DNA from: Bacteroidales bacterium
GTDB lineage: Bacteria; Bacteroidota; Bacteroidia; Bacteroidales; F082
Direction of reading: 5' to 3'
DNA: 52,704 nucleotides
Assembly: GCA_017538795.1 (NCBI GenBank)
Contig: JAFYIE010000024.1
Span: 1 to 52,704, forward strand
Each line of letters begins with the position of its first letter. Within the stretch, counting starts at the first letter, position 1. The translations under genes and the position numbers were made by a program. This document shows, in pieces, positions 3,204-18,194 of the stretch. The notes beneath the pieces were generated by a model that saw only the letters and a program-made list of their open reading frames with translations, made no database searches and was not told the origin of the DNA.

Positions 3204-3806
3204 TTATTCTGATACCGCTTTCGGCGTTTGACTCTCGCCCTGTTTCAGTTGCGGACGGGGACGCTCCCATATCTGCCAGTCATCGATTTCCTTAAACAGA
3301 CGGGCGAGGACTTCCTTGTAGTCGTCGGGATAGACCATCGTATAGACAAACCAGAGTTTGTGATTGGTCATGACCTTCGAGTAATAACTGTAGCCTTCGA
3401 TAAGACTGCCGTTTTCGTACTGCGGACCAGAGAGGATGAAGTAGTCGCTGCCGAGTTTGCGGTCTGTGGCTTTCAATACTTGGGCCAGCGAGTCCATACC
3501 GTCCTTTAATGACTGGCCGTTGTTGTGCATTACATGGCTCTCAAAGACGATGGTAATCCACTGGTCGCCATACTCGAAGCGCATGCGGCCCTTCTCATCC
3601 TGAAGGGAATCTGCTTGGGCGGTGAAGAACGAGGGAACGCGGACAACGTAATCGTAGTCCGCATCCTTGTACTCGTACATGTCAGCGTAAGTGAGTTCCC
3701 GTCCGAAGACCTCCTTGTGCGACTTCAAACCGCTGCATGAACGGATCCAATCGATGCTGGCAGCCACGAGAACGATGGCGATAAATATGAAGATGGCTTT
3801 TCGCAT
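3204..3806 (-). CDS. membrane-anchored protein of unknown function
   Basis: This 200-aa protein has a hydrophobic N-terminus (about residues 4-20) acting as a signal anchor or uncleaved signal. A soluble domain of about 170 aa follows and should face the periplasm. Its C-terminus is charged and Pro/Gln-rich. I recognise no family, and the Cys at residue 24 does not sit in a proper lipobox. The gene begins 3 bases after the barrel gene at 3810-5867, so it is translationally linked to it and is the last gene of the peptide cluster. By position it could be an immunity protein or a barrel-associated factor, but nothing in the sequence proves this. Confidence 0.6.
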   Translation of the reverse strand: MRKAIFIFIAIVLVAASIDWIRSCSGLKSHKEVFGRELTYADMYEYKDADYDYVVRVPSFFTAQADSLQDEKGRMRFEYGDQWITIVFESHVMHNNGQSLKDGMDSLAQVLKATDRKLGSDYFILSGPQYENGSLIEGYSYYSKVMTNHKLWFVYTMVYPDDYKEVLARLFKEIDDWQIWERPRPQLKQGESQTPKAVSE

Positions 3807-3809
3807 TGC

Positions 3810-5867
3810 TTAGTATGCTTTCATAATGGCGCTGTTGATGCTCTTGTTGATGTCGGTGTCGCCACGCTCCGACTTCTTGCCGTAGCCGAGGCTGTAGGTC
3901 ACGGTTAGGTTGATGTTCCTGCCGTCGGCCTCGCCGTAGTTCCAGATGTCGCGGCGGTAGCAGCCGTAGTCCATCGTTATGTGCTGCTTCGTATAGCGAC
4001 TGAAAGGATTGCGCACCAGTGCTTCAACAGCCCAGTTCTTGTGATTCCAACTGACGAGCCACTCATAGACGGGACGGCGGCTGATGAGGTACGGCTCGCG
4101 GATGTCGAGTGCCGTGTAGGGTGTGCGGTAGTTGAAGCGCAGCATCCAGTCGCCCGTGAGGTAGGTGACGGAGGCTTTCATGCGGAAGATGTTGCGCGAC
4201 ATATCGTAGGTGTCGCCCCGCAGCATGTTGTATTCCTCGATGGCGGTCACGCTGAGGCGCAGTTTGTTAGCCAGTGCGCTGTAGACGTAGGTGGCCGTGA
4301 GCATGTTGCCGTAGTAGGTGCCGTCGTTCGTGCGACTGTCGTAGATGGTCTGTTGGTCGGCATCGTAGCGGTGGAGGATGTTGTCGAAGTAGATGCTGTT
4401 GTCGTAGGATATGGAAATCTTCGACTTGCCCATCTGTCCGTTGTACGACAGCGTATTCCCCAGCACCTTCAGCGGGGCGAGGTCGGGATTGCCCTTGACG
4501 GCCTCGAAGAACGAAATGGGTATGGTCATGTCGTTCTTGTTCGACGGGTCGAAGAGCGTGTGGGTGAAAAGGCCGTCGATTGCGAGGGAATGTTTCTGGC
4601 TTAGGGCGTAGTTGCCGCCGTAGAAGGCCACAGGACTGCAATAGTTGTAGTGATTGTCGTTTAACTTGACGGCAGAGTTCGACACGCCTGCTGACACGTA
4701 GTAGTAATACTTCTGCGACGAGCCGCTGAGTTGCACCAGTCCCATCGTCACGTCGGTGGTCAGCCGCTGATGGCCAGCCGAAGTTCCCGTGTATGTGTCC
4801 TTGTAGTGGTTGTGGTCGTGGGTCAGAGAGCCGGATAGCGTCAGGCCGTTCTTCCACGACTTGTAGTAGCGGGCGTTGCCTCGAATAGCGTTGTTGTCCT
4901 CGGTCACGTCGGAGGTCAACGCGCTCTGGGCGGTCTCCGTGTAGCGGCTGTTGTATCGGTTATGGCCGAACGAGGCCGACGCCGTGAAGTCGAGTGTCTG
5001 ATCCTTGGGCAGCCAGAGCGTGTAGTTGGCATAGGCGGTGGGAGCCAGTCCGCGACTGTCCGACGAGGTGAGCCGTTGGCTTGTGCCGTCGTAGTGTCCT
5101 GTGTAGAGTGCCTTCATCGCCGCCTTCGCATTGGGCACGGCCTGACGGGTCAGGCTGACGTAGGCGTTCAGTCGGTGGCTGTTGCCCGTCGATGTCAGTT
5201 TTAGGCGCACGGCCTGGTTGTTCGTCTTGTGGAGAGAAGACTCGCTTGTAAAGTCCCGTGTCAGCCTCGAACGGTCGGAAAAGATGAAGTCCTCGTGCCC
5301 TTCCGAATAACTATGGTCGTGCGCCCAATCGCCCGATGCCGTCAGCGACAGCGTAAGTCCCTTTTTCGTAAAGTCGGTAAAGGCGAGATAGTCGCCCGAT
5401 TTGTAAGCCAGCCCCTCGGTGGCTGACAGATAGACGTTGCCGCCGTACTCCAATTTATAGGTGATGAAGTTTACCAGTCCCGCCTTACCCGCATACTTGC
5501 CGCTCGGTGTGCGGATGTACTCGATGCTGCGGATGTTCTTGGCCCGTAATGTCGCCACGTCCTCAGTCAGTGCCTCCATGCCATTAATACAAATCACCAC
5601 TTCACCACCGCTGTGTGTCGTGATGCTCCTTGTATGTGGCGACACGTCCAGTTCCGCAGTCTGCATCACGTTCAGCAGGTCGAAGCCGTTGGACGAGTGT
5701 TTCTTCTCCAGCGTTGTCGGCAGCAGCACCGTCTTGTCGGCCATCTCTATCTGCCCATCGGCGTTCACCACCACCTCCGGCAGCGTCTCGGTCTTAATGC
5801 TGTCATTCTGTGCCTGTATGGCTATCACCTGTAGGCACACCATAATATATATACTCAGTCTTTTCAT
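3810..5867 (-). CDS. TonB-dependent-receptor-like outer membrane barrel
   Basis: This 685-aa protein has a Sec signal peptide (about residues 1-19, ending AIQAQ) and a plug-like region (about 25-135, containing 'LPEVVVNADG', 'VVICINGMEAL' and 'IEYIRTPSGKYAG'). A long stretch of alternating, aromatic-rich strands typical of an outer membrane barrel runs to the C-terminus. The N-terminal carboxypeptidase-regulatory-like domain common in Bacteroidetes receptors is missing. It lies directly downstream of the lanthipeptide precursor and may handle uptake, export or immunity for the peptide at the outer membrane. Its base composition looks more GC-rich than the neighbouring lanM, suggesting a different recent history. 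A TAnnTTTG element lies only 7 bases before the start codon. Confidence 0.8.
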   Translation of the reverse strand: MKRLSIYIMVCLQVIAIQAQNDSIKTETLPEVVVNADGQIEMADKTVLLPTTLEKKHSSNGFDLLNVMQTAELDVSPHTRSITTHSGGEVVICINGMEALTEDVATLRAKNIRSIEYIRTPSGKYAGKAGLVNFITYKLEYGGNVYLSATEGLAYKSGDYLAFTDFTKKGLTLSLTASGDWAHDHSYSEGHEDFIFSDRSRLTRDFTSESSLHKTNNQAVRLKLTSTGNSHRLNAYVSLTRQAVPNAKAAMKALYTGHYDGTSQRLTSSDSRGLAPTAYANYTLWLPKDQTLDFTASASFGHNRYNSRYTETAQSALTSDVTEDNNAIRGNARYYKSWKNGLTLSGSLTHDHNHYKDTYTGTSAGHQRLTTDVTMGLVQLSGSSQKYYYYVSAGVSNSAVKLNDNHYNYCSPVAFYGGNYALSQKHSLAIDGLFTHTLFDPSNKNDMTIPISFFEAVKGNPDLAPLKVLGNTLSYNGQMGKSKISISYDNSIYFDNILHRYDADQQTIYDSRTNDGTYYGNMLTATYVYSALANKLRLSVTAIEEYNMLRGDTYDMSRNIFRMKASVTYLTGDWMLRFNYRTPYTALDIREPYLISRRPVYEWLVSWNHKNWAVEALVRNPFSRYTKQHITMDYGCYRRDIWNYGEADGRNINLTVTYSLGYGKKSERGDTDINKSINSAIMKAY

Positions 5868-5874
5868 TTGGGTA

Positions 5875-5882
5875 CAAAGGTA
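5875..5882 (-). promoter_or_regulatory. possible -7 element just before the barrel gene
   Basis: TACCTTTG on the minus strand matches TAnnTTTG, and a TTG lies 22 bases further upstream. It ends only 7 bases before the ATG at 5867. Transcription from it would give a nearly leaderless mRNA, so either this is unusual or the match is chance. Confidence 0.35.
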
Positions 5883-5951
5883 CTACATTTTTAGCAATAA
5901 TCTGCAATTATATCCTGACATTTAGCTTATAATATCTTTCTCTTAATCAAT

Positions 5952-6017
5952 ATTCTTAAGTTGAGAGAAAGCGTCCCCAAATTAGATTGGGTATACTTCC
6001 ACTCAACTTTTAAGAAT
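5952..6017 (-). promoter_or_regulatory. two-level stem-loop downstream of the lanthipeptide precursor
   Basis: The outer arms are 5952-5965 (ATTCTTAAGTTGAG) and 6002-6017, whose complement is identical apart from two extra bases. Inside is a second stem, CCCAA (5976-5980) and TTGGG (5987-5991). It begins 21 bases past the precursor stop codon and precedes the barrel gene. No U-run follows on the minus transcript. A leaky attenuator or mRNA-stabilising structure fits better than a strong terminator. Confidence 0.6.
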
Positions 6018-6037
6018 TGGATTACTACACAGGTTGT

Positions 6038-6259
6038 TTAGATGAAACTCTCCTTTGTAGGCTTTTTAATTGGTCCAATCGGGCACTGGCAATTGCATAC
6101 TGCAGTACCATCACACTCGCTGCTGCTTCTTGATGAGCCACAAGAAGCCCCTGCAGCTACTGTATGCGCCTGCCCACCAAGGATAAGAATTAGTGAATCC
6201 TTGTTCAGAATCGAGAACTCGTCAGTTACAACTGACTTCAATTGACTTAATTTTTTCAT
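6038..6259 (-). CDS. lanA: lanthipeptide precursor peptide with GG leader
   Basis: This 73-aa peptide has a leader of about 29 residues ending in a double glycine (G28-G29), the cleavage signal of C39-peptidase exporters. The predicted core (30-73) is rich in modification targets: Cys 40, 49, 55, 57 and 59; Ser 39, 42, 43, 45, 46, 47 and 71; Thr 33, 52 and 68. Up to five thioether rings are therefore possible, with a CxCxC run at 55-59. The gene lies just downstream of lanM, its presumed modifying enzyme, and a C39 ABC exporter is upstream in the same operon. A 28-bp motif shared with a second peptide gene lies 21 bases before the start codon. The ring pattern cannot be read from sequence. 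Confidence 0.85.
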   Translation of the reverse strand: MKKLSQLKSVVTDEFSILNKDSLILILGGQAHTVAAGASCGSSRSSSECDGTAVCNCQCPIGPIKKPTKESFI

Positions 6260-6280
6260 TTTGTCTAATTTTATTAGTTG

Positions 6281-6308
6281 CCTACTCTATAAGCTTTTCG
6301 GCTTCCGC
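6281..6308 (-). promoter_or_regulatory. 28-bp peptide-gene upstream motif, copy 1
   Basis: This segment matches 17693-17720 at 25 of 28 bases, including CCTACTCT and the 12-base block AGCTTTTCGGCT. It lies 21 bases before the lanA start; the other copy lies 23 bases before a second GG-peptide gene. It contains no TAnnTTTG element. A weak 3-4 bp stem (AGC/GCT around CGAAAA) is possible. It may be a leader RNA element or a protein-binding site. Confidence 0.6.
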
Positions 6309-6315
6309 TTATTTC

Positions 6316-9141
6316 CTAATGTAATAATTTTGTCGTGGGGGCAGTCTCAAGACATATTATACTTGGTACGTTCTCCCAGTCATGGAATCTCAGAAGTTGA
6401 TATCCAATTCCCGCAAATCCCATGAATAATCCTACTTGACTGTTTCTGTTATCATCTCCACAGACAATGTCTTTTCCATTACTAATATATCTGGCTATTG
6501 CATTAATCCATTCTGTGCAACAAATTCTTTCTCTGAAGAACTGACTTGATATTGATTTAAGAACCTCCAGATTCCCCATTGAACCATGACATATGGAAAG
6601 ATTATACCCGATTCGCCTTTCAATCTGCCCTATTGCCAATGACAACTCCTGTTCTATTCCAGAGTCCTCGTAACCTTCAGAACACAAAAAAAGCCTAGAC
6701 AGTGCAATTCCTGTTGCTCCGTGACACCAACTTCCACTGTCCCCTTTTGATGATGGATTCCTACCATCTATCCATCCTTTCACTTCTTCCGAGTAGAAAG
6801 AACGGTCGTGGAGCAGTGACTGACAAAACATATTATAATATCGTCTGTCCTTTAGATGTTTTGCAAGTTGGAACATGGCCAGTGCCATTGAAGAACTGCC
6901 ATGAGCAAATCCACCTAATACCATTTGTTTCTCACCTGTTATTTTATTGCCATCTGTATATGTCCAGTACGTTACATCCTTCTTTGTAGTAGCAAGTTGT
7001 CTGATTCGTTCTGCACACTCCTTAAGAATGGCCTGCTTGTCATCTCCTCCCATGAATTTACATTGTACTACTAAAAGTATTAATCCTGCCAGTCCGGACA
7101 TATAATCATATTGAGTAGTAGTTGGGATAAGTCTTTTCACTTCGTTAATAACAGATGTATAGGTAGAACGGTTATAAAAGTCTGGAAACCTCTCCATTAT
7201 ATAAAGTAATCCCGTAATTCCCGACAACGGCGAAATGGGTACTGTGCTCAGATCAATACCATAATAGCTCTCTTTCCAATTTTTACATAACTGTTTGAAT
7301 ATCCTGCTTGCAATTCTTTTATGATTTATGCTATGGCTATAGTTATATAATGTCCTATAAAACAGGCAGATTCCTAACATCCCATCATACATTGAGTCAT
7401 TCATCAAGCATACTTGGAACTTGCCGTCGAAAGAGTTTTTAGTCCTGCATACAAATCCTATTTCATCGTCAATTTCTATCATTCTCTTCTGAATTTCTTT
7501 GTCAATGCGTTCTACTGCATGTCGTATGTCTTGATGATTTATTTCCCTTTCCTCTGTTGGTGAGAGGCGTTCCTTCTTTGTTTTTTCCCCAATGACATCA
7601 ATGAAAAAATTAACCGTTTCGTCAATAATTAACAATTGCTCCTGCTGCCTTTTTATAGTAAGCAATGACAATCTTTTCTTAATTGGCGTAACCCCATTCA
7701 TGTCTGATGTTGTCCATTTTTCAACAACAGAACTATTTGGTAATGTGTATAATGCCAGGTCGCAAGACTTCGTATAGTAATAAGGAATGTTGCCAGATTC
7801 AATCTGGTTGACAATGGACGTTATAAGTCGTTCACATAAATCGCCATAAGACTCTTTTCTTATGATTGGTTTTACAAGTTCCTTAATGCTCTTAGTACCA
7901 TGAAGATAAGGGGGTGTTACCATTTCCCTTAGAAGGTGTGAATATATGATGGTTGGGTGTAAGAGAATTCTAGCCGACAATCCTGTTGTATCATAAGAAT
8001 TAAGGAATTTCAAGATTTCCCCATTATGGTTTCGAAAGAAATTGCATGATTCCGTAAAACCTTCTTTGAGATCTTGTAGTGTTATTTCTGTAATAGGAAA
8101 TGGTTTCCCGTTAATTTTGGGCAAGTGATTGTTTGTCGTTCCAAATTCAAATAGTACAGATGATATTTGGGTACGTTCATTGGCATCATTAAACATCCAG
8201 TCGGGCAATATACCAGTCTGGAGGACAGACTCCTGCAAGTACATGCTAAGTTTTGAACTATCCATATGTTTGAAAACTTTCGATGTGACAGACTCACAAT
8301 CTATAATATATGGACATCCACCTACACAAAGTAAATTGTCTGGGATAATATCCTGAGTTCCTAATAAGTAGAATAAACCCTGTAGCTTCCCTAAATTCTG
8401 GTAATACCCTTTAATTTCTTTCTTACAGGTCATTTCTTTGGTTGCGATGTGGAGATGCCATGAATATTTACCTTTGTCAAGAAATGAAGGAACCCCCATA
8501 TTTATGGTCAAGCCCATACTGGTTAGGCAAGATATTACATCCAATAAGAATTTTTCATTTGCAGCCCCTCGTGGCTTGTAATATAGCTTAACACCATTCT
8601 GAAAAGTTATTGAGGATACACATTTTCCATTATGCAAATCACCTTCAAGAATACAAATTTCTTTAGCAATTGATTCTTCCAGATAAAAATAGGAATTGAG
8701 TTGCTTGTAATCATTATCTAATGAGTATAGAAGTTCATTCAAATAATCTAAAATTCCCTCGGTATATGACTCAAGCATATTCCCCAATTTTGGGTATTTA
8801 TCAAAGCAATATTGAATCCATTCCTCTTTGGACGAAAGGCTTTGTATAAAAAACTGATTTTGCTCTTTTTCTGTGTGACCTTCCAAAAGACTATTCTCTT
8901 TTGCAAGTCTATACTCATACGGGTAAACGAATTTAAAAAACTTCTCATAGGCATATGATACAATTTGATAGGTAATTTGCTCTACAATATCATCTCCCTG
9001 TATGAATGAATTTTTGAAGATATTTTTCGCAACCCTCTCCCGAACGAGGAAGTAGTATGGATACATGAAAACAAGTTTTCTTTCCTTACTTATATTTTCG
9101 TTTGCAAAAACTTTTGCTTGATAAAGTATTTCTGTAATCAT
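6316..9141 (-). CDS. lanM: class II lanthipeptide synthetase LanM
   Basis: This 941-aa bifunctional enzyme should phosphorylate and dehydrate Ser/Thr of the precursor and then cyclise them with Cys. The N-terminal dehydratase domain (about 50-500) shows the LanM kinase-like motifs GDLHNGKCV (167-175), KLYYKPRG (185-192), GTQDIIPDN (261-269) and IDCES (280-284). The C-terminal LanC-like cyclase domain (about 570-930) shows the zinc ligands C806 (WCHG), C851 and H852 (CHG). Length is normal for the family. The gene is AT-rich compared with the flanking element core, which suggests separate acquisition. It lies between the HlyD-like micro-ORF and lanA on the same strand. LanM enzymes are uncommon in Bacteroidales compared with Firmicutes. 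Confidence 0.93.
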   Translation of the reverse strand: MITEILYQAKVFANENISKERKLVFMYPYYFLVRERVAKNIFKNSFIQGDDIVEQITYQIVSYAYEKFFKFVYPYEYRLAKENSLLEGHTEKEQNQFFIQSLSSKEEWIQYCFDKYPKLGNMLESYTEGILDYLNELLYSLDNDYKQLNSYFYLEESIAKEICILEGDLHNGKCVSSITFQNGVKLYYKPRGAANEKFLLDVISCLTSMGLTINMGVPSFLDKGKYSWHLHIATKEMTCKKEIKGYYQNLGKLQGLFYLLGTQDIIPDNLLCVGGCPYIIDCESVTSKVFKHMDSSKLSMYLQESVLQTGILPDWMFNDANERTQISSVLFEFGTTNNHLPKINGKPFPITEITLQDLKEGFTESCNFFRNHNGEILKFLNSYDTTGLSARILLHPTIIYSHLLREMVTPPYLHGTKSIKELVKPIIRKESYGDLCERLITSIVNQIESGNIPYYYTKSCDLALYTLPNSSVVEKWTTSDMNGVTPIKKRLSLLTIKRQQEQLLIIDETVNFFIDVIGEKTKKERLSPTEEREINHQDIRHAVERIDKEIQKRMIEIDDEIGFVCRTKNSFDGKFQVCLMNDSMYDGMLGICLFYRTLYNYSHSINHKRIASRIFKQLCKNWKESYYGIDLSTVPISPLSGITGLLYIMERFPDFYNRSTYTSVINEVKRLIPTTTQYDYMSGLAGLILLVVQCKFMGGDDKQAILKECAERIRQLATTKKDVTYWTYTDGNKITGEKQMVLGGFAHGSSSMALAMFQLAKHLKDRRYYNMFCQSLLHDRSFYSEEVKGWIDGRNPSSKGDSGSWCHGATGIALSRLFLCSEGYEDSGIEQELSLAIGQIERRIGYNLSICHGSMGNLEVLKSISSQFFRERICCTEWINAIARYISNGKDIVCGDDNRNSQVGLFMGFAGIGYQLLRFHDWENVPSIICLETAPTTKLLH

Positions 9142-9182
9142 TTTCTCTTACTAAATGTCATTTGTAGTTCTTTCCTTATAAA

Positions 9183-9335
9183 TCATTTAATAAATAGATA
9201 TGTGAATACAACGCTTATCAATAATATTAGAGAAATTATAATTGTACCACAACGAATAACCAAAGGTGGTTCTTCTCCCATAATATTCCTCACCTTATCG
9301 CTACGGATTCCTATGTTCTCCAAATCTTTAGCCAT
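9183..9335 (-). CDS. 50-aa HlyD-like membrane stub
   Basis: This short ORF encodes 50 residues: a polar N-terminus of about 27 residues (containing 'IGIRSDKVRNIMGEEPP') and then one membrane helix (about 28-48), ending FIK-stop. The pattern matches the N-terminal cytoplasmic tail and inner-membrane helix of Bacteroidetes HlyD-family adaptors that partner C39 ABC exporters. It stops where the periplasmic hairpin and barrel domains would begin. The start codon is 11 bases after the exporter's stop codon, and lanM begins 41 bases after its own stop. It is either a functional microprotein of the exporter or a remnant of a truncated adaptor. No complete adaptor or TolC-type gene is present in the window. 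Confidence 0.65.
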   Translation of the reverse strand: MAKDLENIGIRSDKVRNIMGEEPPLVIRCGTIIISLILLISVVFTYLFIK

Positions 9336-9346
9336 ATCTCAACTAT

Positions 9347-11542
9347 TTAATTTCCTAATTCTAACTGATTCTTTACAAGATTATAATACGCTCCTCTCTT
9401 TGCTGTCAGGGACTTGTGATTTCCTGTCTCAACCACCTTGCCCTTATCCAAGACGATTATCTGATCCGCATTCTTCACTGTACTCAGACGATGTGCTACT
9501 ACCACAACGGTCTTACCTTTATAGAACTTATCCAAATTATCTACAATGGCACGTTCATTGCTTGCATCCAAAGAATTTGTCGCCTCATCAAGGAAGATAA
9601 ACTTCGGATTCTTATATACTGCACGTGCAATCAAGATACGCTGCTTCTGACCTTGGCTTAATCCCATTCCGTCCCTTCCAATATTTGTATTGAACTTCAA
9701 CGGGAGAACCATAACAAAGTCTTTGACATTAGCGATTTCGGCAGCCATTTCAAGTCTTTCTTCATCTATCTCGCCATCATCAACCGCAATATTCCTTGCA
9801 ATAGACTCAGAGAAGATGACACCATCTTGCATGACAACACCACATTGCCGCCGCCACCATTTCAAGTTGTATTCGGATATGTTGTGGCCAGCAATCGTTA
9901 TTTCACCATTCATTACTGGGTAATACCCCAGCATGAGTTTTATCAGTGTGGTCTTGCCACTTCCTGATGCCCCCACGATGGCTGTAATTTTCCCCTCTGG
10001 GATATGTATGTTCACGCCCTCAATAGTCTTCGACAGGGCATGAGGGTCATACTTGAAGTCAATATTGCTCAATTCTATATCATGACTTTCATTGTCAAAC
10101 TCTGTTCTTGAACGATTGTAATCTTCTTCATTGTCCTTTTTGTGAATCTCATTGATACGCTCAAGGCTTATCTTCACGTCCTGTATAGAGTATATGAAGT
10201 GCATAAGTTGCTCTATAGGGCTGTTTAGCTGGCCTATGATATACTGCACGGCCAACATCATACCAAGTGTAAGGCTTCCATTAATGACTGCAGTAGCTGA
10301 GACAACGGTAATGATGATATTCTTTAATTCATTGATAAAGATGCTCCCAGCCTCCTGCGTCTGTTGGAGTTTCAGACTTTTCATTTGGATGTGGAATAGG
10401 TCTGCCTGTACATCCTCCCATTCCCAGCGTCTGCGCTGCTCACAGTCTTGCAGCTTGATTTCCTGCATCGAGGTCAGGAACTGGTAGGTCTTATTGTTGT
10501 TTGCTGCCTGTTGCTCAAAGAGTTCATAGTCAATAACCTTACGACGTCGCAAAAACAGTGCCATCCATCCACCATACAGAATACTTCCAATAAGAAATAT
10601 TAAGAAGATGAGCCTGTTATAGACCAACAGTACACAACTGAACACAGCGAAGCTAATCAAAGAGAATGCCACATTTAATGTCTGCTGTGTCAGGAATGAG
10701 TTAACCCGTGAATGATCACCGATACGCTGCATCAAATCACCCATCAGTTTTGTATCGAAGAACGACATAGGCAGCTGAAGCAGTTTAATGAAGAAGTCGC
10801 TTACCAATGAAATGTTGATACGCATGGAGATATGCAGCAAGAGCCACCTGCGTATGAAGTCGACAGATGTTCGGCTGAGTGTGATGACAAGTTGCCCTAT
10901 CAAAATAAGCCAGATGAAACCTATATCCTTGTTTTTAATGCCAATATCGACGATGTTCTGGGTAAGGAATGGCAATGCAAGTTGTAGAAGGCTTCCAACA
11001 AGCAAGCCAAGTATTATTTGGAAGAAATACTTACGGTATTGCTTGATATAACCGAACAAGAATTTGAAAGGCTTGTCTGTTCTTGACTCGTATTCGCCAG
11101 AATTCTCATAAAAAGCCTGTGTTGGCTCAAGAAACATGGCAATTCCTTTTCCTTCTTTCCCTTGTCCCATTTCTATCCAATGCTGTTTGAATTCATCTGT
11201 AGTGTAAGTTATCAATCCTTTCCCCGGGTCAGCAACGTAAAATTTGCGCCCTTTCTTTACCTTATATAAAACAACAAAGTGATTCTGGTTCCAGTGAAGA
11301 ATACATGGTAACGTTGCCGAGGATAGTTCATCTATAGTTAAACGACCACTAATGGTATATAATCCAATTTTAACGGCTGCGTCTCTGATGCCGAGAAGGG
11401 ACACACCTTCAGTAGTTGCAAAACAAATATTCGAAAGATAATCCTGACAAAATGTCCTTCCATGATACGCACATATCATTTGTAAGCATGCGATCCCGCA
11501 TTTCATACTGTCATATTGCTTAATATAGTGTATCTTTTTCAT
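9347..11542 (-). CDS. lanT: C39-peptidase-containing ABC exporter for GG-leader peptides
   Basis: This 731-aa inner-membrane transporter should cleave GG leaders and export the mature peptides using ATP. The N-terminal C39 domain (about 1-140) has the catalytic triad C15 (MKCGIACL), H88 (NHFVVL) and D105 (ADPGKG). A six-helix membrane domain follows (about 165-460), then an ABC ATPase with Walker A GASGSGKTT, signature LSQGQKQR and Walker B FLDEATN. It is full length for the family. Being the only exporter in the cluster, it probably serves lanA and both two-cysteine peptides. It begins 6 bases after the upstream barrel gene, and the HlyD-like stub follows after 11 bases. Confidence 0.92.
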   Translation of the reverse strand: MKKIHYIKQYDSMKCGIACLQMICAYHGRTFCQDYLSNICFATTEGVSLLGIRDAAVKIGLYTISGRLTIDELSSATLPCILHWNQNHFVVLYKVKKGRKFYVADPGKGLITYTTDEFKQHWIEMGQGKEGKGIAMFLEPTQAFYENSGEYESRTDKPFKFLFGYIKQYRKYFFQIILGLLVGSLLQLALPFLTQNIVDIGIKNKDIGFIWLILIGQLVITLSRTSVDFIRRWLLLHISMRINISLVSDFFIKLLQLPMSFFDTKLMGDLMQRIGDHSRVNSFLTQQTLNVAFSLISFAVFSCVLLVYNRLIFLIFLIGSILYGGWMALFLRRRKVIDYELFEQQAANNNKTYQFLTSMQEIKLQDCEQRRRWEWEDVQADLFHIQMKSLKLQQTQEAGSIFINELKNIIITVVSATAVINGSLTLGMMLAVQYIIGQLNSPIEQLMHFIYSIQDVKISLERINEIHKKDNEEDYNRSRTEFDNESHDIELSNIDFKYDPHALSKTIEGVNIHIPEGKITAIVGASGSGKTTLIKLMLGYYPVMNGEITIAGHNISEYNLKWWRRQCGVVMQDGVIFSESIARNIAVDDGEIDEERLEMAAEIANVKDFVMVLPLKFNTNIGRDGMGLSQGQKQRILIARAVYKNPKFIFLDEATNSLDASNERAIVDNLDKFYKGKTVVVVAHRLSTVKNADQIIVLDKGKVVETGNHKSLTAKRGAYYNLVKNQLELGN

Positions 11543-11548
11543 ATAGTA

Positions 11549-14098
11549 TTATAACTTATAATATACTGAAAAAAACAACTCCCGTCCACGGATGCGGTTG
11601 GTGGAGGTGCTGCTGGTGAGGTCGCTGGTGATGACGTATGAATAGGTGTCACGGTTCAGCAGATTGTTGAGCGAGAGAGTGAGATCAAGACGCTTTGACT
11701 TGTAACTGGCTTTGATGTCAGCCAGAAAGAAGTCTTTGTAGTTGCCGCTGGTAATCTCGTTGCGGTAATACTCGCCCCGGAGGTCGATAGTGAACGGGCT
11801 TACAGGAATGATGATGGAAAGGTCTTGCTTCCAGCCGTCAGTCTTCAGCGAATAATCCATCGACTGTATCTTCATGCGGTTCTGATTGAACGTGAGACCA
11901 TAGCGCAGATGCATGTCCTTCCAAAAAGAGAAGTCAAGACCTGCGCGAACGTTGAGCATCAGACTGTTGTAGTCGGTCATTATTCCATTTTGAAGCATCG
12001 AGGCATCGCTGTTAAGATACAAGGCACGGAGATTGACAACGCCATTCCATAGGTTGATGCCCTTGCTGGCTATCAGGTTGGCTTGCCAGGAATCCGACTT
12101 GCTTTCCTGCTCTACAGCAGAGAGGATGATGTAATCGCCCACGAACTGACGTGTCGGTGTATAGGGCGAGGTGCTGAAACTACGCGATACGGTCAAGATG
12201 GTGTGCAAGGCTTTCAGTGCATCATTATAGTTGATGCCGCCATGAACGGCCTGCGTATGACTGTGCCGATAGCCCGCATAGCCTCGGTTGATATACTGGA
12301 AGTCCTGCAATATCAGTGAACGGTAGAAACGACTGGCATCCAAAGGCTCCACAGATGCAGAACCACCCAACGAAAGACGCAGACGGGGCGTGACATACCA
12401 TCGGATGCTGAGGTCTGGCGTGAAGAGTATTTGGTGATGACCATTGTCGTGGCTGTATTTCTCGTAAAGGTATTCCGTTGTTGGGCTGAGTTCTACATTG
12501 ATGTCGCGCGTCTTATAAGTCAGATTCGGCTGCACATAAATGCGGGCAAAAGAGAAACGGCTGTTATCTGCCAACAGTCCGATGGTATCGGGAAGTCCTG
12601 TCAGATCAGACTCCAGACGATGCAAGGCTGCATTCACACCCGCTTTCAGTGAGAGGCTGAATCGTCCGAGTTTGATGCCACCCATAGCATAAGTATCGGT
12701 GCTGTATCGCTGACCGCTGACGTACTGATAAAGTGTGTCAACGGACAATGACTGCGGACGGCTGATGATGCGGTTATTGGAATAGAGCGAAACAAGGCTG
12801 TTGCCGTACTTGCGGATGATATACAGATTGTCCTTGATATCGTATTCGGGCTTGCGGGCAAACTGATTATGGTTGGATGAACCCGACTCATTAAGCCACT
12901 GGCGGCTCCATGTGAAATCGCCCGAAAGCGAGTTCTTCAGATATTGGTTGGTGCTGTTGCGCTCATACTTCACCAGTGCGTATAGTTCGTTGTCCTTTTG
13001 CAGATAGTCCTTGCGATTGTCGATGATGCGGTTACCGTCTGGCAGGAAATACTCCGTGCGCCTTTCACCCTCTGCCGTTTCGCGGTTGTTGTTATAGATT
13101 ATCTGTACGTTCATCTGCGATGACTCATTAAACCGTTTCAGTGTGTTGAGCGTGACGGCATGGCTGCGATTGAACAATGTACGGCTTTCGGCAAGGTTGG
13201 GTGTCGTAGGCGGTGACAGTTGGATATAGTCGCCTTGACTTTCCAAATCGTCGAAGTTGAATAGACTCGTTGTTTCCTTGCTGATGTCCTGCCCCGTGTT
13301 GTTGGTCTTGTAGGTGAGCATGGTCTGGAAATCTGACTTCAACCGCAGGCCAAAGCCCTCGAATTTCCATAACCCTGTATGGCTGCTGATGCCTGCCCCG
13401 CCGTTGAACGATGTCACCCAATGGCTCTTGGCTCCCTCTTTCATACGGATGTTCACTGCCGCCTCGTCGGTATAGGTGAAGTCCTCCAGCACGCGGATGG
13501 GCTGATGGTTTTTCATCACCTGCACGGAGCCTACATCCACCTGTGGCAGTGAGTTGGTAGCTATGCCGTATTTGTCGCCCAGCATATCCAGCCCCTCGAT
13601 ATAGAACTTACTGATAGGCTTACCCTCATACTTGATCTGTCCGTTCTGCTTGTTCACCTCGAAACCAGGGATGCGAGCCAGCACGTCACCTATGTTGCGG
13701 TCGTTCTGGTCGGCAAAGGTCGCCACGTTGTATGTCAGTGTGTCGCCATGTTCACGCACCTTACTGGCCTTGACGGTCACTTCCTTTAGAGCAACGGCTT
13801 CCTCTTGCATCACTATTCTCAACGGCTTCTCGTTTGACAGATTATCAATGCGCTGTTTCTTGAAACCAAGCATCGAGACTTCCAGATAACTATCGGCATT
13901 TGCTTCAATAGAGAACGAGCCTTTGCTGTCGGTCTTGCCATAGCTTATCATCTTATTAGTGCCATTGCTGCGCACTTGGATAATGGCACCAGTCAACGGA
14001 TCACCTTTTTTGTCGGTGACCGTTCCCATTATCCGCATCTGCGCCAAGGTCAAGAGCGGAAAGAGGCTGCATAGTATAATAATAAAGTGTCGCTTCAT
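11549..14098 (-). CDS. TonB-dependent-receptor-like barrel with carboxypeptidase-regulatory domain
   Basis: This 849-aa outer membrane protein has a signal peptide (about 1-19), a CarboxypepD_reg-like beta domain (about 20-105, 'MGTVTDKKGDPLTGAIIQV'), a plug-like segment (about 110-220, 'IGDVLARIPGFEV') and a long C-terminal barrel. Its ATG overlaps the stop codon of the preceding GLPGLI gene (ATGA), so the two are translationally coupled. Pairing of GLPGLI proteins with this type of barrel is common in Bacteroidetes, but the function of the pair is unknown. In this cluster it could take part in peptide passage, immunity or receptor functions at the outer membrane. It differs from the downstream 685-aa barrel, which lacks the first domain. 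Confidence 0.82.
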   Translation of the reverse strand: MKRHFIIILCSLFPLLTLAQMRIMGTVTDKKGDPLTGAIIQVRSNGTNKMISYGKTDSKGSFSIEANADSYLEVSMLGFKKQRIDNLSNEKPLRIVMQEEAVALKEVTVKASKVREHGDTLTYNVATFADQNDRNIGDVLARIPGFEVNKQNGQIKYEGKPISKFYIEGLDMLGDKYGIATNSLPQVDVGSVQVMKNHQPIRVLEDFTYTDEAAVNIRMKEGAKSHWVTSFNGGAGISSHTGLWKFEGFGLRLKSDFQTMLTYKTNNTGQDISKETTSLFNFDDLESQGDYIQLSPPTTPNLAESRTLFNRSHAVTLNTLKRFNESSQMNVQIIYNNNRETAEGERRTEYFLPDGNRIIDNRKDYLQKDNELYALVKYERNSTNQYLKNSLSGDFTWSRQWLNESGSSNHNQFARKPEYDIKDNLYIIRKYGNSLVSLYSNNRIISRPQSLSVDTLYQYVSGQRYSTDTYAMGGIKLGRFSLSLKAGVNAALHRLESDLTGLPDTIGLLADNSRFSFARIYVQPNLTYKTRDINVELSPTTEYLYEKYSHDNGHHQILFTPDLSIRWYVTPRLRLSLGGSASVEPLDASRFYRSLILQDFQYINRGYAGYRHSHTQAVHGGINYNDALKALHTILTVSRSFSTSPYTPTRQFVGDYIILSAVEQESKSDSWQANLIASKGINLWNGVVNLRALYLNSDASMLQNGIMTDYNSLMLNVRAGLDFSFWKDMHLRYGLTFNQNRMKIQSMDYSLKTDGWKQDLSIIIPVSPFTIDLRGEYYRNEITSGNYKDFFLADIKASYKSKRLDLTLSLNNLLNRDTYSYVITSDLTSSTSTNRIRGRELFFSVYYKL

Positions 14099-14865
14099 TC
14101 CAGTTCCATGAGAGGTGTTATAATTGTACCTGCCGGGTAGGAACTCGGATTGGTCTTCATTTTCAGATACTTCTTTCTGTCCACAGGTTGATACTTGAAG
14201 TCGGCTAAGTTATAGAATGTCACGGGTGAGATGCCAGTAGTCGAAATACTGTAGGCGGTAATGGTTATATAGCCACTACATTCTGCCTGCAGGATGATAC
14301 CTGGCAGTCCGTTCAGTTTCCAAGGGCCGAGGCTCACGGGGATGCCCTCGGCATACCATACTGCCCACTCTCTTCCCCGAAACTTGGTCGTAGCCTTGTG
14401 GCACTTATAGCCGAGAAGCGTCAACGTAGAATCCTCTTCAATAGTCCACTCCATCGTAGGTATTTCTTCCTCCACAAGATATTTGTTTTCGAAAACCCTT
14501 GTATAGACAGACACTTTGCCTGCCACAAGATTCCAATACAAGTAGTCGCCATGACCAGGAGAAGCAGGCCGCTGTTTAGTAGGATCGTCCCGATGCATGG
14601 CTGCTTCAATCATTTCGTCCAGCACAATATTTCTCATGGAAGGGTCTGGCGAATTCCTCAAAGAATCGTCACGCAGTTTATTCAAACTGAAATATTGGCT
14701 CGCGTTCTTTCCACAACGGAGAGCATACATGTCCTTGTTGTTTGCTTGAACCACGTCGTATCGGACTTCCAGAGTTGAAGGCTCTATTTCGTATGTACTC
14801 TGTGCATTTGCCCCTATCCGTACTAATAGGAGACCCATTCCTGCATATAATATATATTTTTTCAT
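14095..14865 (-). CDS. GLPGLI family protein (second copy)
   Basis: This 256-aa secreted protein has a signal peptide (about 1-21, ending GANAQS) and the family hallmark WKLNGLPGIILQAE near residue 190, preceded by a conserved 'VWYAEGIPVSLGPWK'. GLPGLI proteins are Bacteroidetes-specific, periplasmic or surface proteins of unknown biochemical role. They are often found next to GG-leader peptides and TonB-type barrels. This copy follows a two-cysteine GG-peptide and its stem-loop, and its stop overlaps the start of the 849-aa barrel gene. A homologue lies at 16624-17451 in the same arrangement, after another GG-peptide, so each peptide appears paired with its own GLPGLI protein. Confidence 0.85.
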   Translation of the reverse strand: MKKYILYAGMGLLLVRIGANAQSTYEIEPSTLEVRYDVVQANNKDMYALRCGKNASQYFSLNKLRDDSLRNSPDPSMRNIVLDEMIEAAMHRDDPTKQRPASPGHGDYLYWNLVAGKVSVYTRVFENKYLVEEEIPTMEWTIEEDSTLTLLGYKCHKATTKFRGREWAVWYAEGIPVSLGPWKLNGLPGIILQAECSGYITITAYSISTTGISPVTFYNLADFKYQPVDRKKYLKMKTNPSSYPAGTIITPLMELE

Positions 14866-14884
14866 TTTATTCTGCTTTTTTATA

Positions 14885-14916: not shown

Positions 14917-14934
14917 CAACAATGTTATAGAGGC

Positions 14935-15096
14935 TTAGCAGTTTTTCTCAAAGTCGTCCGCCCATTCCTCCCAATCTTCGGCACTTGCAGTTTTGTCTCT
15001 TATGTAAGCATCTGCAAGTGCTTGAAGTTTCTTGCACTCTTTTTCATTTTTGCCACCATGAACTTCCATGAGTTCTGAAATTGTTAATTTTTTCAT
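14935..15096 (-). CDS. 53-aa GG-leader peptide with two cysteines
   Basis: The peptide begins MKKLTISELMEVHGG. The GG at residues 14-15 marks a short leader of the Bacteroidales natural-product type. The predicted core (16-53) is acidic, with Cys 21 and a C-terminal Cys 53, and contains an acidic tryptophan patch (DWEEWADDF, 41-49). An in-frame ATG at 15144 would add 16 residues, but the start at 15096 gives the standard MKKL leader and avoids extending into the gap after the VKOR gene. With few Ser/Thr and exactly two Cys, a single disulfide is more likely than lanthionine rings. It lies 25 bases after the VKOR-thioredoxin gene. Layout matches the 52-aa peptide at 17511-17669. Confidence 0.8.
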   Translation of the reverse strand: MKKLTISELMEVHGGKNEKECKKLQALADAYIRDKTASAEDWEEWADDFEKNC

Positions 15097-15121
15097 TTTT
15101 TTGATTTTTAAATTGTTAAAC

Positions 15122-16621
15122 TTATTTATTTGGTGGATTTCCACCTTGGGCCCAATCGCTAATAAGTATATTTATATCTGAAATATTATATAATTTAGGG
15201 AATTCCACCCCATTAAATATCACTGTTGGATAATGTTCAATGTGGTTCTTTCGGATATCATCTAACATCCCCATATACTTCCGCATCGTTTCATCTGTTG
15301 CTTCAGAAATTCTATTGTGCTTCCCTTTTGAAATACAATCCAATGACCACTGTTTGTTAATTCTGTATTCCTCTATAATCTGAAGCGGTTGGAGTTTATC
15401 TTTACGTAGTTTTTTGCCTTCTCCGTCTATATACAATCTCCATGTTATAAGCTGATGGTAGCGCCGCATAATGTTCTGCATTTCTTGGACTAAAAACCTA
15501 CAATGTTTACAGTCCAAATCTATAATTGTATCTATTGTGTAAATTCCTTTGTCCGCTCCATAAATCAAGGCATTTTCATTTGCCAGGTAGAACTCCCTTC
15601 CGTTCTTCAGAAATTGCTCAAACATGCCAGGGGTACGTTTAAGTTTCAGTAGGGCAATTTCTTTACTGGCAGACTTTTGTTTATACCGAAGGCTACTGAG
15701 TAGCAGAAATGAGATTGCCCCTGACACGATAGTGGCCAAAATATCATTTAATGTTATCCTCAACGAGATAGTGCTAAATGGGATGGCCGTAGACATGATA
15801 ACAAAAATTGAAATGACAAGAATGCTAATGCCCAAACAATAAATGCAAATTTTCTTCAATATAAAAAACTGGAAGAACATCAAATAGAAAACAACTAACG
15901 CACCAGAAGTACTTATGAAAACATTAAGAAAACAAACACCTTCATGAGATGAAGACAATATAATAAACAGGAAATAGAAACACCCCATAACGGGCAGATT
16001 AAGTTTTGCATTTCGTACAAAGGGATTACTATTTGAAACCGACTCGCAATCTATGAGTTTTCCATGACTGCAAAAGGGTAAATCAACATATTTTAATGTT
16101 GTTTTTAAAAGTAAGAAGTAAGACAATACAAATCCAATACCCCCTATTGTGAGCAGTACGGCATTATGCCTAAATGCTAACATTGCAACTATGTAATATA
16201 TTATAGCAAAGGATAGAGGATTTCTGTGGGGTTTTGATATTCTCTTCTGAGCTATTGGACTGGATGACTCTATAACAAGAACTATCCCTTGCCATATCTT
16301 CAAGAATTCCTGTGTGGTCAATAAATGAGTCGTTCCATCATACAGTGTGATATCACAGGATGTTATTTTCTTAATGAAAAAGAATCTGCCCCCGTTTACA
16401 TTGCAATGTACGACCTTTTCTTTCGTTTCCCGAGTTAGATGTTCAAAATCCGTTTTGTATGCACTCGTATATATTCCCCAAAAGGAAAGGGCTCGTATCA
16501 TGGATATTGCACTTGGATATGCAGGGTCTGAATGGAGAATTTTGCAAATTTCCATTCTATCTCCCTCTATTTTATGAGAGTGCAATATATGTTGCACAAT
16601 AGTTATGAGATAATCCATCAT
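15122..16621 (-). CDS. C39-like / vitamin K epoxide reductase / thioredoxin fusion protein
   Basis: This 499-aa membrane protein has three parts. Residues 1-125 resemble a C39 peptidase fold without a catalytic Cys at the start, so it could be a leader-binding domain. Residues 135-315 form a multi-helix VKOR domain with loop cysteines C184 and C192 (CSHGKLIDC) and the active-site pair C259/C262 (CIYC). Residues 335-495 form a thioredoxin-like domain with C371/C374 (CKHC). VKOR-thioredoxin fusions oxidise protein thiols to disulfides outside the cytoplasm, passing electrons to quinones. It sits between two GG-peptides that each carry two cysteines, so they are its likely substrates. It starts 2 bases after the GLPGLI gene. 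Confidence 0.85.
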   Translation of the reverse strand: MMDYLITIVQHILHSHKIEGDRMEICKILHSDPAYPSAISMIRALSFWGIYTSAYKTDFEHLTRETKEKVVHCNVNGGRFFFIKKITSCDITLYDGTTHLLTTQEFLKIWQGIVLVIESSSPIAQKRISKPHRNPLSFAIIYYIVAMLAFRHNAVLLTIGGIGFVLSYFLLLKTTLKYVDLPFCSHGKLIDCESVSNSNPFVRNAKLNLPVMGCFYFLFIILSSSHEGVCFLNVFISTSGALVVFYLMFFQFFILKKICIYCLGISILVISIFVIMSTAIPFSTISLRITLNDILATIVSGAISFLLLSSLRYKQKSASKEIALLKLKRTPGMFEQFLKNGREFYLANENALIYGADKGIYTIDTIIDLDCKHCRFLVQEMQNIMRRYHQLITWRLYIDGEGKKLRKDKLQPLQIIEEYRINKQWSLDCISKGKHNRISEATDETMRKYMGMLDDIRKNHIEHYPTVIFNGVEFPKLYNISDINILISDWAQGGNPPNK

Positions 16622-16623
16622 TC

Positions 16624-17451
16624 TTATTGGTAATCAGTTTCTAAATAATTACGATGCAACTTGTTGTTTGTTTTGTCCAAATCGAGATTAATTCCTGTTT
16701 GAGATTGAATCAAATGTGCAGAGTTCTCTTCATATTTTCTTTTTGCTTTAAGGAATTTCTTTCGGGTAGTCTTTTTAAATTTTCCGCATTTACTCCTATC
16801 GTAGGCTTCATAAGTTTTTATGGTTTGTATCGCATTAATAACAAAGTGGTGTTGAGAATCAGCATCATACGCCTCCATTATCAAACCGGGCAATCCTCCC
16901 AACTTCCATGGCCCATTAGAAACGGGTATATCATATGTAAACCATACAATCCATAACCTCCCATGATAATACGCTGTGGCCTTTACACATTCGTAATCGA
17001 GCACAATTTTGGCATCTTCACAAATCTTCCATTTCTGGGAATCCAAAGAATCTTCATAGAAATACAAAGAATTATTTATGTCATCGTATATTGTTACCTT
17101 GCCACTCAAAAAGTTCTTGTATATATAGCTAGTGCTTCTTCTAAAATAGAAATTGGATGCGTTAACTCCATCCTTTTGATAGGCAGCTAAGAATGCTTGT
17201 TTCCACTTTTGTTCATAGTCGGGTTCTTGTTTTATGGAATCAGTCTGAAAGGTGTAATAGCTATAAAATGCAGACTCTCTCGTACCAATGATTAGGAACA
17301 TTAAGTCTTCTTTCCGTGAATTATTAAGACTGTCTTTAATACTTGTATAATTATATGAGCACTTCAAACACGGGGCATGCATAGTTGTTTGGCTGTTAAT
17401 ACAACCATTGCCTATCACTAAACCGAAAATAAGAAATATATATTTTCTCAT
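16624..17451 (-). CDS. GLPGLI family protein (first copy)
   Basis: This 275-aa exported protein has the family hallmark WKLGGLPGLIMEA around residue 185 and the preceding 'VWFTYDIPVSNGPWK'. I place the start at 17451 (MRKYIFLIFG), which gives a clean signal peptide; the longer ORF from 17478 adds nine residues in front of it. The Cys in 'GNGC' near residue 17 is a weak lipobox, so lipidation is uncertain. It resembles the second GLPGLI protein at 14095-14865 but is more charged. It lies behind the 52-aa peptide and its stem-loop and directly before the VKOR fusion gene (2-base gap). Function unknown. Confidence 0.82.
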   Translation of the reverse strand: MRKYIFLIFGLVIGNGCINSQTTMHAPCLKCSYNYTSIKDSLNNSRKEDLMFLIIGTRESAFYSYYTFQTDSIKQEPDYEQKWKQAFLAAYQKDGVNASNFYFRRSTSYIYKNFLSGKVTIYDDINNSLYFYEDSLDSQKWKICEDAKIVLDYECVKATAYYHGRLWIVWFTYDIPVSNGPWKLGGLPGLIMEAYDADSQHHFVINAIQTIKTYEAYDRSKCGKFKKTTRKKFLKAKRKYEENSAHLIQSQTGINLDLDKTNNKLHRNYLETDYQ

Positions 17452-17466
17452 AACTTTATTTGTTTT

Positions 17467-17499
17467 TATTGGGAGCAAACATTCAGTATGCCCCCAATA
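17467..17499 (-). promoter_or_regulatory. stem-loop downstream of the 52-aa peptide gene
   Basis: Arms TATTGGGAGCA (17467-17477) and TGCCCCCAATA (17489-17499) pair over 11 positions. One is a G-U wobble in the minus transcript, around an 11-base loop. It lies between the peptide stop codon (17511) and the GLPGLI start (17451), the same arrangement as after the 53-aa peptide. The RNA reads into an A-rich stretch, not a U-run. Confidence 0.6.
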
Positions 17500-17510
17500 T
17501 TAGGTAACTG

Positions 17511-17669
17511 TTAACAGTATTTCTGGTATGCATACGCTGCACTGTGACGGTTGTGATCATCCCAGTTATCCCAGTTGTCAGAGATTATCTGTGTCAGTTG
17601 CGCACAATACTCTTCTTGAGAAATACCTCCCATGATACCATGAAGTTCATTAAATGTCAATTTATCCAT
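17511..17669 (-). CDS. 52-aa GG-leader peptide with two cysteines
   Basis: The peptide begins MDKLTFNELHGIMGG. The GG at residues 14-15 ends a short leader like that of the 53-aa peptide. The core (16-52) has Cys 22 and a C-terminal Cys 52 and a central acidic-tryptophan patch DNWDNWDD (31-38). The spacing of GG, first Cys, Trp patch and last Cys matches the other peptide, although the sequences differ elsewhere, so the two are probably diverged paralogues with one disulfide. It is followed by a stem-loop and a GLPGLI gene and preceded by the 28-bp motif shared with lanA. The export signal fits the C39 exporter at 9347-11542. Activity is unknown: bacteriocin or signal are the main options. 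Confidence 0.78.
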   Translation of the reverse strand: MDKLTFNELHGIMGGISQEEYCAQLTQIISDNWDNWDDHNRHSAAYAYQKYC

Positions 17670-17692
17670 GTTCTGAAGAAATTTAAATTATA

Positions 17693-17720
17693 CCTACTCT
17701 CTTAGCTTTTCGGCTCCCGC
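17693..17720 (-). promoter_or_regulatory. 28-bp peptide-gene upstream motif, copy 2
   Basis: This segment is identical to 6281-6308 at 25 of 28 bases, and both copies keep CCTACTCT and AGCTTTTCGGCT. It lies 23 bases before the 52-aa peptide start, in the 117-base gap after the DUF3244 gene. The 53-aa peptide gene lacks it. No -7 element is nearby, so it is probably an internal operon element: a leader RNA, processing site or regulator site. Confidence 0.6.
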
Positions 17721-17786
17721 TCCTTTTATACAGGTTGGTCTGTCTCAATTATTCCGGAATTATATTGAAGTTCATTTATCGTGTTG

Positions 17787-18194
17787 TCATTCATACATGT
17801 CGAATGTGCCTCCATAAGTATGTTCGTTATATGTCACTGCTATATAATATGTACCAAAGGAGAAAAATCCGAGATTAATACTATAGCAACCGTTGTTGCT
17901 ACAGATCAAAACTCCCTGAGAAACAATCTCGTCACTTTCATTATATATATAGTAGGTGAATTCCCCATCTGCAAGAGCCGTTACCAACAATTGCTGGCTT
18001 TCTTCGTCAAGAACGACGCTTATAGGAATACAAAAGTGAGCCGGAGCTTTCGAGGGCTTTGGGTTGTTTCCCAACAGAGGTCCTTGTCGATAAGTGAGAG
18101 ATACAGGGTACATAGAAGTGGTAGCTGACCACATCGTAACACTTTGCATCGTGAAGGCAAACATGATTGCCAATAATTTGATGTTCTTTCTCAT
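17787..18194 (-). CDS. DUF3244 small secreted protein
   Basis: This 135-aa protein has a signal peptide (about 1-24, ending WSA) and a small beta-rich domain with the DUF3244 pattern: 'PISVVLDEESQQLLVT', 'YYIYNESDEIVSQG' and 'YSINLGFFSFGTYYIAV'. DUF3244 proteins are short, Bacteroidetes-specific, secreted and of unknown function, predicted to adopt an Ig-like fold. Two Cys (about 98 and 103, in 'ICSNNGCY') could form a local disulfide. It is the first gene of the minus-strand peptide cluster, with a good -7 element 34 bases upstream. It lies divergent to the TPR-HTH regulator. A role in immunity or surface display is only a guess. Confidence 0.78.
   Translation of the reverse strand: MRKNIKLLAIMFAFTMQSVTMWSATTSMYPVSLTYRQGPLLGNNPKPSKAPAHFCIPISVVLDEESQQLLVTALADGEFTYYIYNESDEIVSQGVLICSNNGCYSINLGFFSFGTYYIAVTYNEHTYGGTFDMYE

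Follow-up and report, generated by a model that had tools for sequence, protein, structure and literature searches.

Two described kinds of peptide gene cluster come closest to the locus analysed here. BGC9 of Prevotella combines genes for a lanthipeptide synthetase (LanM), a C39-peptidase ABC exporter (PCAT), an outer-membrane protein and a tetratricopeptide repeat (TPR) protein, and its main account reports no adaptor; PCATs with outer-membrane proteins but no adaptor are described there in four clusters, and the question of a distinct mechanism is raised (PMC10352776). Bacteroidetocin loci, as far as their main description goes, carry a thiol oxidoreductase together with a PCAT (PMC6671954). 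Here we analyse a stretch of 52,704 nucleotides (nt), referred to as the window, from a Bacteroidales bacterium (assembly GCA_017538795.1, contig JAFYIE010000024.1), in which one minus-strand run at 3204-18194 joins a LanM pathway to small disulfide peptides, a VKOR oxidase, a single PCAT and an adaptor stub of 50 amino acids (aa). Judged by comparison with relatives, the locus unites modules of two kinds, each found elsewhere without the other. We favour, with moderate confidence, the reading that it is a composite secreted-peptide cassette on a CTnDOT-like element, with two modules sharing one exporter. The most interesting lead is the adaptor stubs and their link to outer-membrane barrels. 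In the open literature searched, which did not cover subscription papers and preprints, we found no description of VKOR, GLPGLI and LanM together, or of adaptor stubs.

Results

Read from 18194 to 3204, the run encodes a DUF3244 protein, GG-peptide 2 (named for its double-glycine, or GG, leader), GLPGLI protein 2, the VKOR protein, GG-peptide 1, GLPGLI protein 1, a TonB/SusC-type barrel (TBDT849), the PCAT, the stub, LanM, its precursor LanA, a second TonB-type barrel (OMB685) and a 200-aa protein, with intergenic gaps of -4 to 170 nt (Table 1). A first-pass annotation of the letters alone had named a mixed lanthipeptide and disulfide-peptide cluster here, and sequence and family models place each of its parts on this strand, in the order and at the place that it gave. 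To these we add the stub, the DUF3244 protein, the 200-aa protein, a divergent TPR gene and two DUF805b RNA motifs.

The lanthipeptide half has the features of class II: a LanM that resembles LicM2 and CylM and exceeds its curated cut-off lies next to a precursor with a GG-leader and five cysteines, which is conserved in Hoylesella timonensis (75% identity over 67 aa). OMB685 alone gave zero Pfam hits, and a profile of OMB685 and 11 relatives matches solved TonB/SusC-type receptors. In the disulfide half, both peptides have a 15-aa leader and two cysteines, in keeping with two bacteroidetocin traits (15-16 aa for the GG-leader, and two cysteines or more), and the TBDT849 profile matches SusC homologues in its N-terminal part. 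The thioredoxin-like match of the VKOR protein is below threshold (17.6 against a cut-off of 23.2 bits); six of its cysteines (two paired in a loop, and those of the CxxC motifs in the VKOR and thioredoxin-like parts) are invariant across six homologues. In all six VKOR proteins the CG motif of the peptidase site is absent from the first 125 residues, the C39-like part. Because this motif is missing, the C39-like domain more likely binds leaders than cleaves them.

The two halves were found separately in related genomes. Searches with the VKOR protein of the window matched 1 of 99 host-genus genomes (its own), 11 of 393 genomes of the order (its own included) and 7 of 299 genomes of the H. timonensis genus, where three loci match at 29-31% over the full length. 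These three (L062, L063 and L064) are collinear with the window in VKOR, GG-peptide, one or two GLPGLI genes, TBDT849 (43-48%) and PCAT (73-74%); counting a fourth locus, L145, relatives of TBDT849 reach 43-65% identity. Homologues of GG-peptide 1 adjoin VKOR in L063 and L064, and L064 is fronted by a TPR gene (BT3442-like, 75.5 bits, under cut-off) with DUF3244 and followed by a 157-aa adaptor. At E 1e-3, no LanM match occurs in any of eight VKOR-bearing regions of 18-20 kb, comprising these three and the more distant L065, L066, L074, L161 and L162, nor in the Emticicia and Aureibacter regions L081 and L082. VKOR is annotated beside a PCAT, with full-length adaptors, in Emticicia and Aureibacter plasmids; VKOR adjoining a PCAT is not new in itself.

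LanM relatives are few, with one locus in the genome-contig search, a single genome among the 299 of the H. timonensis genus, 5 among the 393 of the order (the window's genome counted) and, over the model cut-off, 2 among the 173 of the host family, one being that of the window. VKOR was matched in none of five LanM loci of 3.4-20 kb (L002, L067, L068, L069 and L076, of which L002, L069 and L076 span only 3.4-7.5 kb), nor in the H. timonensis assembly with the closest LanM-LanA pair. Pattern scans of viral contigs gave no relatives of LanM or VKOR. The first-pass annotation had tied its joint system to linkage of the halves in related genomes. Such linkage is missing as far as ancestry is concerned, and the LanM and VKOR halves as an ancestral unit are rejected, since they are found apart; what stands of the joint system is a tight joint and a plausible shared transcript down to lanA.

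By descent, as sequence comparison places it, the exporter is part of the GLPGLI/disulfide cassette. Its nearest relative, at 81% identity, lies in L145, where GLPGLI (56%), TBDT849 (65%), the PCAT and a 53-aa stub follow one another without lanM, on a contig that begins at GLPGLI and so does not cover the VKOR position upstream. A tree of 78 PCATs, made by a quick method, joins the window and L145 as sisters (SH-aLRT 99), and the PCAT beside the H. timonensis homologue of OMB685 (L070) sits in a neighbouring group. From these positions we conclude that the exporter was most likely in place before the lanthipeptide half arrived.

Leaders of GG-peptides carry hydrophobic residues at positions -4, -7 and -12 before the GG, and all three leaders of the run do so (I/L/L in LanA, V/L/L in peptide 1 and I/L/L in peptide 2). 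Therefore one PCAT could plausibly process all of them, and a single exporter serving two peptide classes is our best inference. The stub and lanM share a strand and are separated by 41 nt in which no promoter match occurs, and gaps from DUF3244 to lanA are at most 117 nt; one transcript from DUF3244 through lanA is plausible. Within 2600-18700 on the minus strand, the Bacteroides-type promoter consensus (TTG-N18..23-TAnnTTTG) is matched in full only once, behind lanA and 8 nt before OMB685, and a bare -7 box stands 35 nt before DUF3244. The whole gap between lanA and OMB685 folds at -42.3 kcal/mol, with z -3.66 and an equally good fold in 1 of 200 shuffles, and OMB685 and the 200-aa gene probably form a second transcript. 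A scan for sigma-70-type promoters and terminators gave no excess over shuffles.

Several observations weigh against the favoured reading. The LanM searches found the composite in no second genome. In H. timonensis, where a LanM at 59% identity adjoins LanA (L002) and a linkage of LanA to OMB685 is plausible, the OMB685 homologue of L070 precedes its own PCAT (75%) and a 167-aa adaptor; the lanthipeptide pathway may therefore depend on an exporter matched to it. Barrels of the TonB type are usually importers. Finally, host contig C20 holds another PCAT, with a full HlyD, which could act in trans. This second exporter, the separate occurrence of the halves and the probable promoter of OMB685 also speak for the alternative that the halves are accidental neighbours, the lanthipeptide genes having landed as cargo whose product leaves by a different transporter or is never made. 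The 41-nt, promoter-free joint on one strand argues against it, as does the C20 exporter, which is only 30% identical to that of the window, and we regard this explanation as unlikely.

An assembly error at the stub-lanM joint would likewise produce a composite seen in no second genome, and the host assembly is a draft (2.48 Mb, 122 contigs, 6.6% estimated contamination). However, the genes lie on one strand, the gaps from PCAT to lanA are 11, 41 and 56 nt, and G+C is 36-40% across the joint; we consider such an error very improbable.

Three side observations concern these exporters and LanM relatives. The C20 region (L160, C20: 14001-34000) also holds a GG-peptide open reading frame (ORF) preceded by a DUF805b motif, and ORFs beside its PCAT resemble mobilisation genes by eye. 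H. timonensis contig C164 (L076) carries a second, distant LanM (about 26%), preceded by an 89-aa candidate precursor. The end of a group II intron (RF00029, 47 bits) lies just upstream of the OMB685 homologue, at a contig break (L070 5756-5855), and the H. timonensis LanA contig ends about 170 nt past lanA in what by eye is a group II intron start, with no Rfam match there.

Of a canonical tripartite (type I) peptide exporter, the run holds the C39-ABC exporter, and beside it stands the 50-aa stub with no periplasm-spanning adaptor, which could lie elsewhere, as on C20. No TolC-type channel was noticed among the annotated ORFs of the window, with no genome search aimed at TolC. We surveyed 78 PCATs drawn by similarity to the exporter of the window (the window counted once, near-identical copies merged; L065, which gave no match at threshold, was excluded, as were matches shorter than 650 aa or under 40% identity). 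Behind the exporter lay a stub (38-81 aa) in 14, a mini adaptor (153-180 aa) in 21, a mid-length adaptor (226-240 aa) in 4, a full adaptor in 30 and nothing recognised in 9. Three stubs are doubtful, L104 (38 aa), L136 (62 aa, with a full-adaptor-like start) and L114 (13 bits); the 11 sound ones include L062 (55 aa), L145 (53 aa), L153 and L163 (49 aa each), L155 (65 aa) and L164 (47 aa). A Parabacteroides plasmid carries one of 62 aa, annotated as hypothetical (WP_005859114.1).

The recurrence of stubs across this comparison bears on the suggestion that the exporter is broken by decay, its adaptor cut to 50 aa by insertion of lanM. Related adaptors of 157-167 aa do exist, but L145 has a 53-aa stub without lanM, and stubs follow 14 of 78 PCATs (11 of them sound). 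Creation of the stub by lanM insertion is thus rejected on the evidence of L145, and decay as a whole is hardly credible. A 35-aa cut fragment ahead of the H. timonensis lanM (L002) scores only 2.4 bits and is not claimed as a stub.

Short adaptors are associated with barrels. The gene immediately upstream of the PCAT is barrel-like in 25 of 35 cases with a stub or mini adaptor against 2 of 30 with a full one (Fisher p 6e-8), the 9 unrecognised and 4 mid-length cases being kept outside the comparison and upstream genes in small survey loci being clipped by the 1.5-kb flank. After PCATs were merged at 70% identity the figures are 12 of 17 and 0 of 20 (p 3e-6). Of the 17 barrels used to build the barrel model, 16 adjoin a stub or mini adaptor and 1 a mid-length one, and the model is hence biased to the short-adaptor class; Pfam searches of 10 of the 30 upstream genes in the full class agree with it (2 barrels, 8 others). 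Non-barrel genes upstream in that class include VKOR, thioredoxins and lantibiotic dehydratase ends. Phylogenetically, 28 of the 35 short adaptors fall in one clade of 35 PCATs without a full adaptor (19 mini, 9 stub, 1 mid-length, 6 unrecognised). Short versus full adaptor needs only 4 changes on the tree, with too few pairs for significance in an independent-pairs test, and the stub state needs 7, doubtful stubs counted. Repeated co-evolution of barrels and short adaptors is unsupported beyond one main clade. The association suggests a TolC-independent exit, and stems mainly from one deep clade and not from many independent events.

From this association we tentatively raise a TolC-independent route for GG-peptides in Bacteroidales, in which a PCAT with a stub adaptor works with a dedicated barrel run outward, releasing the mature peptide; here one exporter would feed two barrels, the first for the disulfide peptides and the second for the lanthipeptide. 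A comparably tentative alternative, which we also see as possible, is that the peptides are signals and the barrels their receptors or uptake proteins, for self-recognition or immunity, with secretion through an unlinked adaptor and TolC. It would accommodate the profiles of both barrels, which match TonB/SusC-type receptors, the TPR gene at the head of the run and the acidic disulfide cores (net -4), set against the somewhat basic bacteroidetocins of the published description (PMC6671954). The position of barrels directly upstream of PCATs with short adaptors is easier to understand as an export link, a point that holds at clade level only.

Several other cassettes are recorded here for their layout. 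Plasmid NZ_OY725790.1 of Parabacteroides distasonis (L084 5927-12386) carries small GG-type ORFs, a radical SAM protein, a barrel, a PCAT and a 62-aa stub, the export layout of the window with another maturase. Two records from human faeces deposited as 'Bacteriophage sp.' (L077, MT836930.1, and L078, MT836455.1) hold PCAT cassettes with PCATs at 74-76% and barrel-type genes, and look like bacterial or mobile-element DNA. PCAT cassettes L146 and L071 include several ORFs of 418-505 aa, for which no NCBIfam family was found (one tested), and DUF805b motifs before GG-peptides.

In the window, DUF805b motifs precede both GG-peptide 2 and lanA, and the motif also precedes the H. timonensis lanA. 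Among 17 hits in 12 chosen genomes, 8 stand before a GG-peptide. Across the order the motif is present in 64 of 87 genomes, and 2 of 29 inspected loci precede GG-peptides, one found by a script that used the best pattern match per locus (in a few not the listed hit) and one, L195, by eye. With only these 2 of 29, DUF805b as a general marker of GG-peptides is rejected; it is a feature common to both halves and not proof of joint control. Locus L195 itself (G254, contig C104 6134-8212) has four DUF805b motifs in about 2 kb, one of which, on inspection, precedes a GG-type peptide, and may be an array of peptide genes.

The surrounding element contains Phage_integrase and RteC over cut-off, and a hybrid kinase, a sigma-54-type regulator, topoisomerase III and DUF4099/DUF3945 were also seen. 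We take the kinase and regulator to be RteA/RteB-like and the element to be CTnDOT-like. The label 'conjugative' is based on these hallmarks; no mobilisation or transfer gene was recognised among the annotated ORFs of the window, with no family search aimed at them. A plasmid megablast with positions 1-25000 gave zero matches. The divergent TPR protein has a weak likeness to NCBIfam BT3442_fam (27.6 bits, far below cut-off), and similar TPR genes head L064, L154 and L155. Separately, PADLOC models detect defence-like cargo at 35827-52698, at least 28 kb from lanM.

Table 1. Features of the window, with positions, strands and supporting evidence
Feature	Position	Strand	Evidence
Divergent TPR protein, possible regulator	18440..20266	+	TPR_12 over cut-off
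DUF3244 secreted protein, first gene of the run	17787..18194	-	PF11589, 25.6 bits (cut-off 25)
DUF805b RNA motif, 21 nt before ATG of GG-peptide 2	17691..17723	-	RF02914, 34.6 bits, just under gathering score 35.6
GG-peptide 2, 52 aa; core 37 aa, net -4, two Cys	17511..17669	-	sequence
GLPGLI protein 2	16624..17478	-	TIGR01200, 183.7 bits, over cut-off
C39-like/VKOR/thioredoxin-like oxidase	15122..16621	-	VKOR 49.8 bits, C39-like 28.2 bits, both over cut-off
GG-peptide 1, 53 aa; core 38 aa, net -4, two Cys	14935..15096	-	sequence
GLPGLI protein 1	14095..14865	-	TIGR01200, 140 bits, over cut-off
TBDT849, 849-aa TonB/SusC-type barrel	11549..14098	-	CarbopepD_reg domains (CarbopepD_reg_2) over cut-off; Plug match below cut-off
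PCAT exporter	9347..11542	-	Peptidase_C39, ABC_membrane, ABC_tran over cut-off
HlyD-type adaptor stub, 50 aa (cytosolic segment and one membrane helix)	9183..9335	-	50.6 bits to model from 41 other adaptor N-termini
LanM class II lanthipeptide synthetase	6316..9141	-	TIGR03897, 467 bits (cut-off 304)
DUF805b RNA motif, 19 nt before lanA ATG	6279..6311	-	RF02914, 47.8 bits
LanA precursor, 73 aa, GG-leader, 44-aa core with 5 Cys	6038..6259	-	69% full-length to H. timonensis LanA
lanA-OMB685 gap	5868..6037	-	long hairpin and Bacteroides-type promoter match (5875-5907)
OMB685, 685-aa TonB-type barrel	3810..5867	-	63% homologue in H. timonensis L070
200-aa protein, last gene of the run	3204..3806	-	no family over cut-off
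PDC-S02	35827-36882		PADLOC model
Avs4-like, 1522 aa	37025-41593		PADLOC model, 785 bits
PDC-S06	41596-43161		PADLOC model
AbiEii/AbiEi	45722-47328		PADLOC model
CARF6-like	47441-48517		PADLOC model
PRTase	50355-51488		PADLOC model, weaker match

Discussion

Under the shared-export reading, a first module (DUF3244, GG-peptides, GLPGLI proteins, VKOR oxidase, TBDT849, exporter and stub) would make and export small disulfide peptides, and a second (lanM-lanA with OMB685), joined directly behind the stub, would have no exporter of its own here. LanM enzymes modify LanA in the cytosol, where thioethers would be installed on the precursor of this locus. The VKOR protein probably uses its inactive C39-like domain to hold GG-leaders at the membrane, and its VKOR-thioredoxin part would oxidise the two cysteines as a peptide emerges. 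The single PCAT would then cleave all three leaders after the GG and deliver the cores to the periplasm. Because so short an adaptor could not reach TolC, the peptides probably leave through the TonB-type barrels, each class perhaps using one of its own. Comparison shows the parts, the occurrence of each module apart from the other, the descent of the exporter and the repeated appearance of stubs; joint export, leader holding by the C39-like domain, barrel exit and any biological activity are inferred.

How peptides pass the two membranes of Bacteroidales is an open question, to which recurrent stubs and their barrel link offer a concrete, testable answer. The composite also suggests that export cassettes which are otherwise alike, some of which sit on mobile elements, swap maturation modules (VKOR, LanM, radical SAM), and that disulfide and thioether peptides may both have to pass through a single exporter. 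The peptides may serve competition or signalling.

Comparison with known systems

By its description, BGC9 resembles the locus in its LanM, PCAT, outer-membrane protein and TPR gene, and differs from it in having glycosyltransferase and methyltransferase genes and in a main text that names neither VKOR nor GLPGLI (PMC10352776). Bacteroidetocin loci, likewise by description, share the GG-leader of 15-16 aa, the cysteines, the thiol oxidoreductase and the PCAT; bacteroidetocins A and B have four cysteines and somewhat basic cores, and their loci a gene for a 5-TM (transmembrane) protein, whereas the peptides of the window are acidic with two cysteines, and the terms 'GLPGLI' and 'TonB' are absent from the main text of that report (PMC6671954). 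Class II lanthipeptide clusters are described as lying close to phage-defence genes (PMC12715929), and the window too has defence-like genes, at the distance given above.

The nearest relatives each match one half of the locus. H. timonensis shares LanM (59%), LanA (69%), OMB685 (63%), a PCAT (75%) and a DUF805b motif before lanA, but its assembly has no VKOR match and its OMB685 homologue stands with its own PCAT and 167-aa adaptor. In contrast, L062, L063 and L064 share the order of VKOR, GG-peptide, GLPGLI, TBDT849 and PCAT, and differ from the window in having no LanM match.

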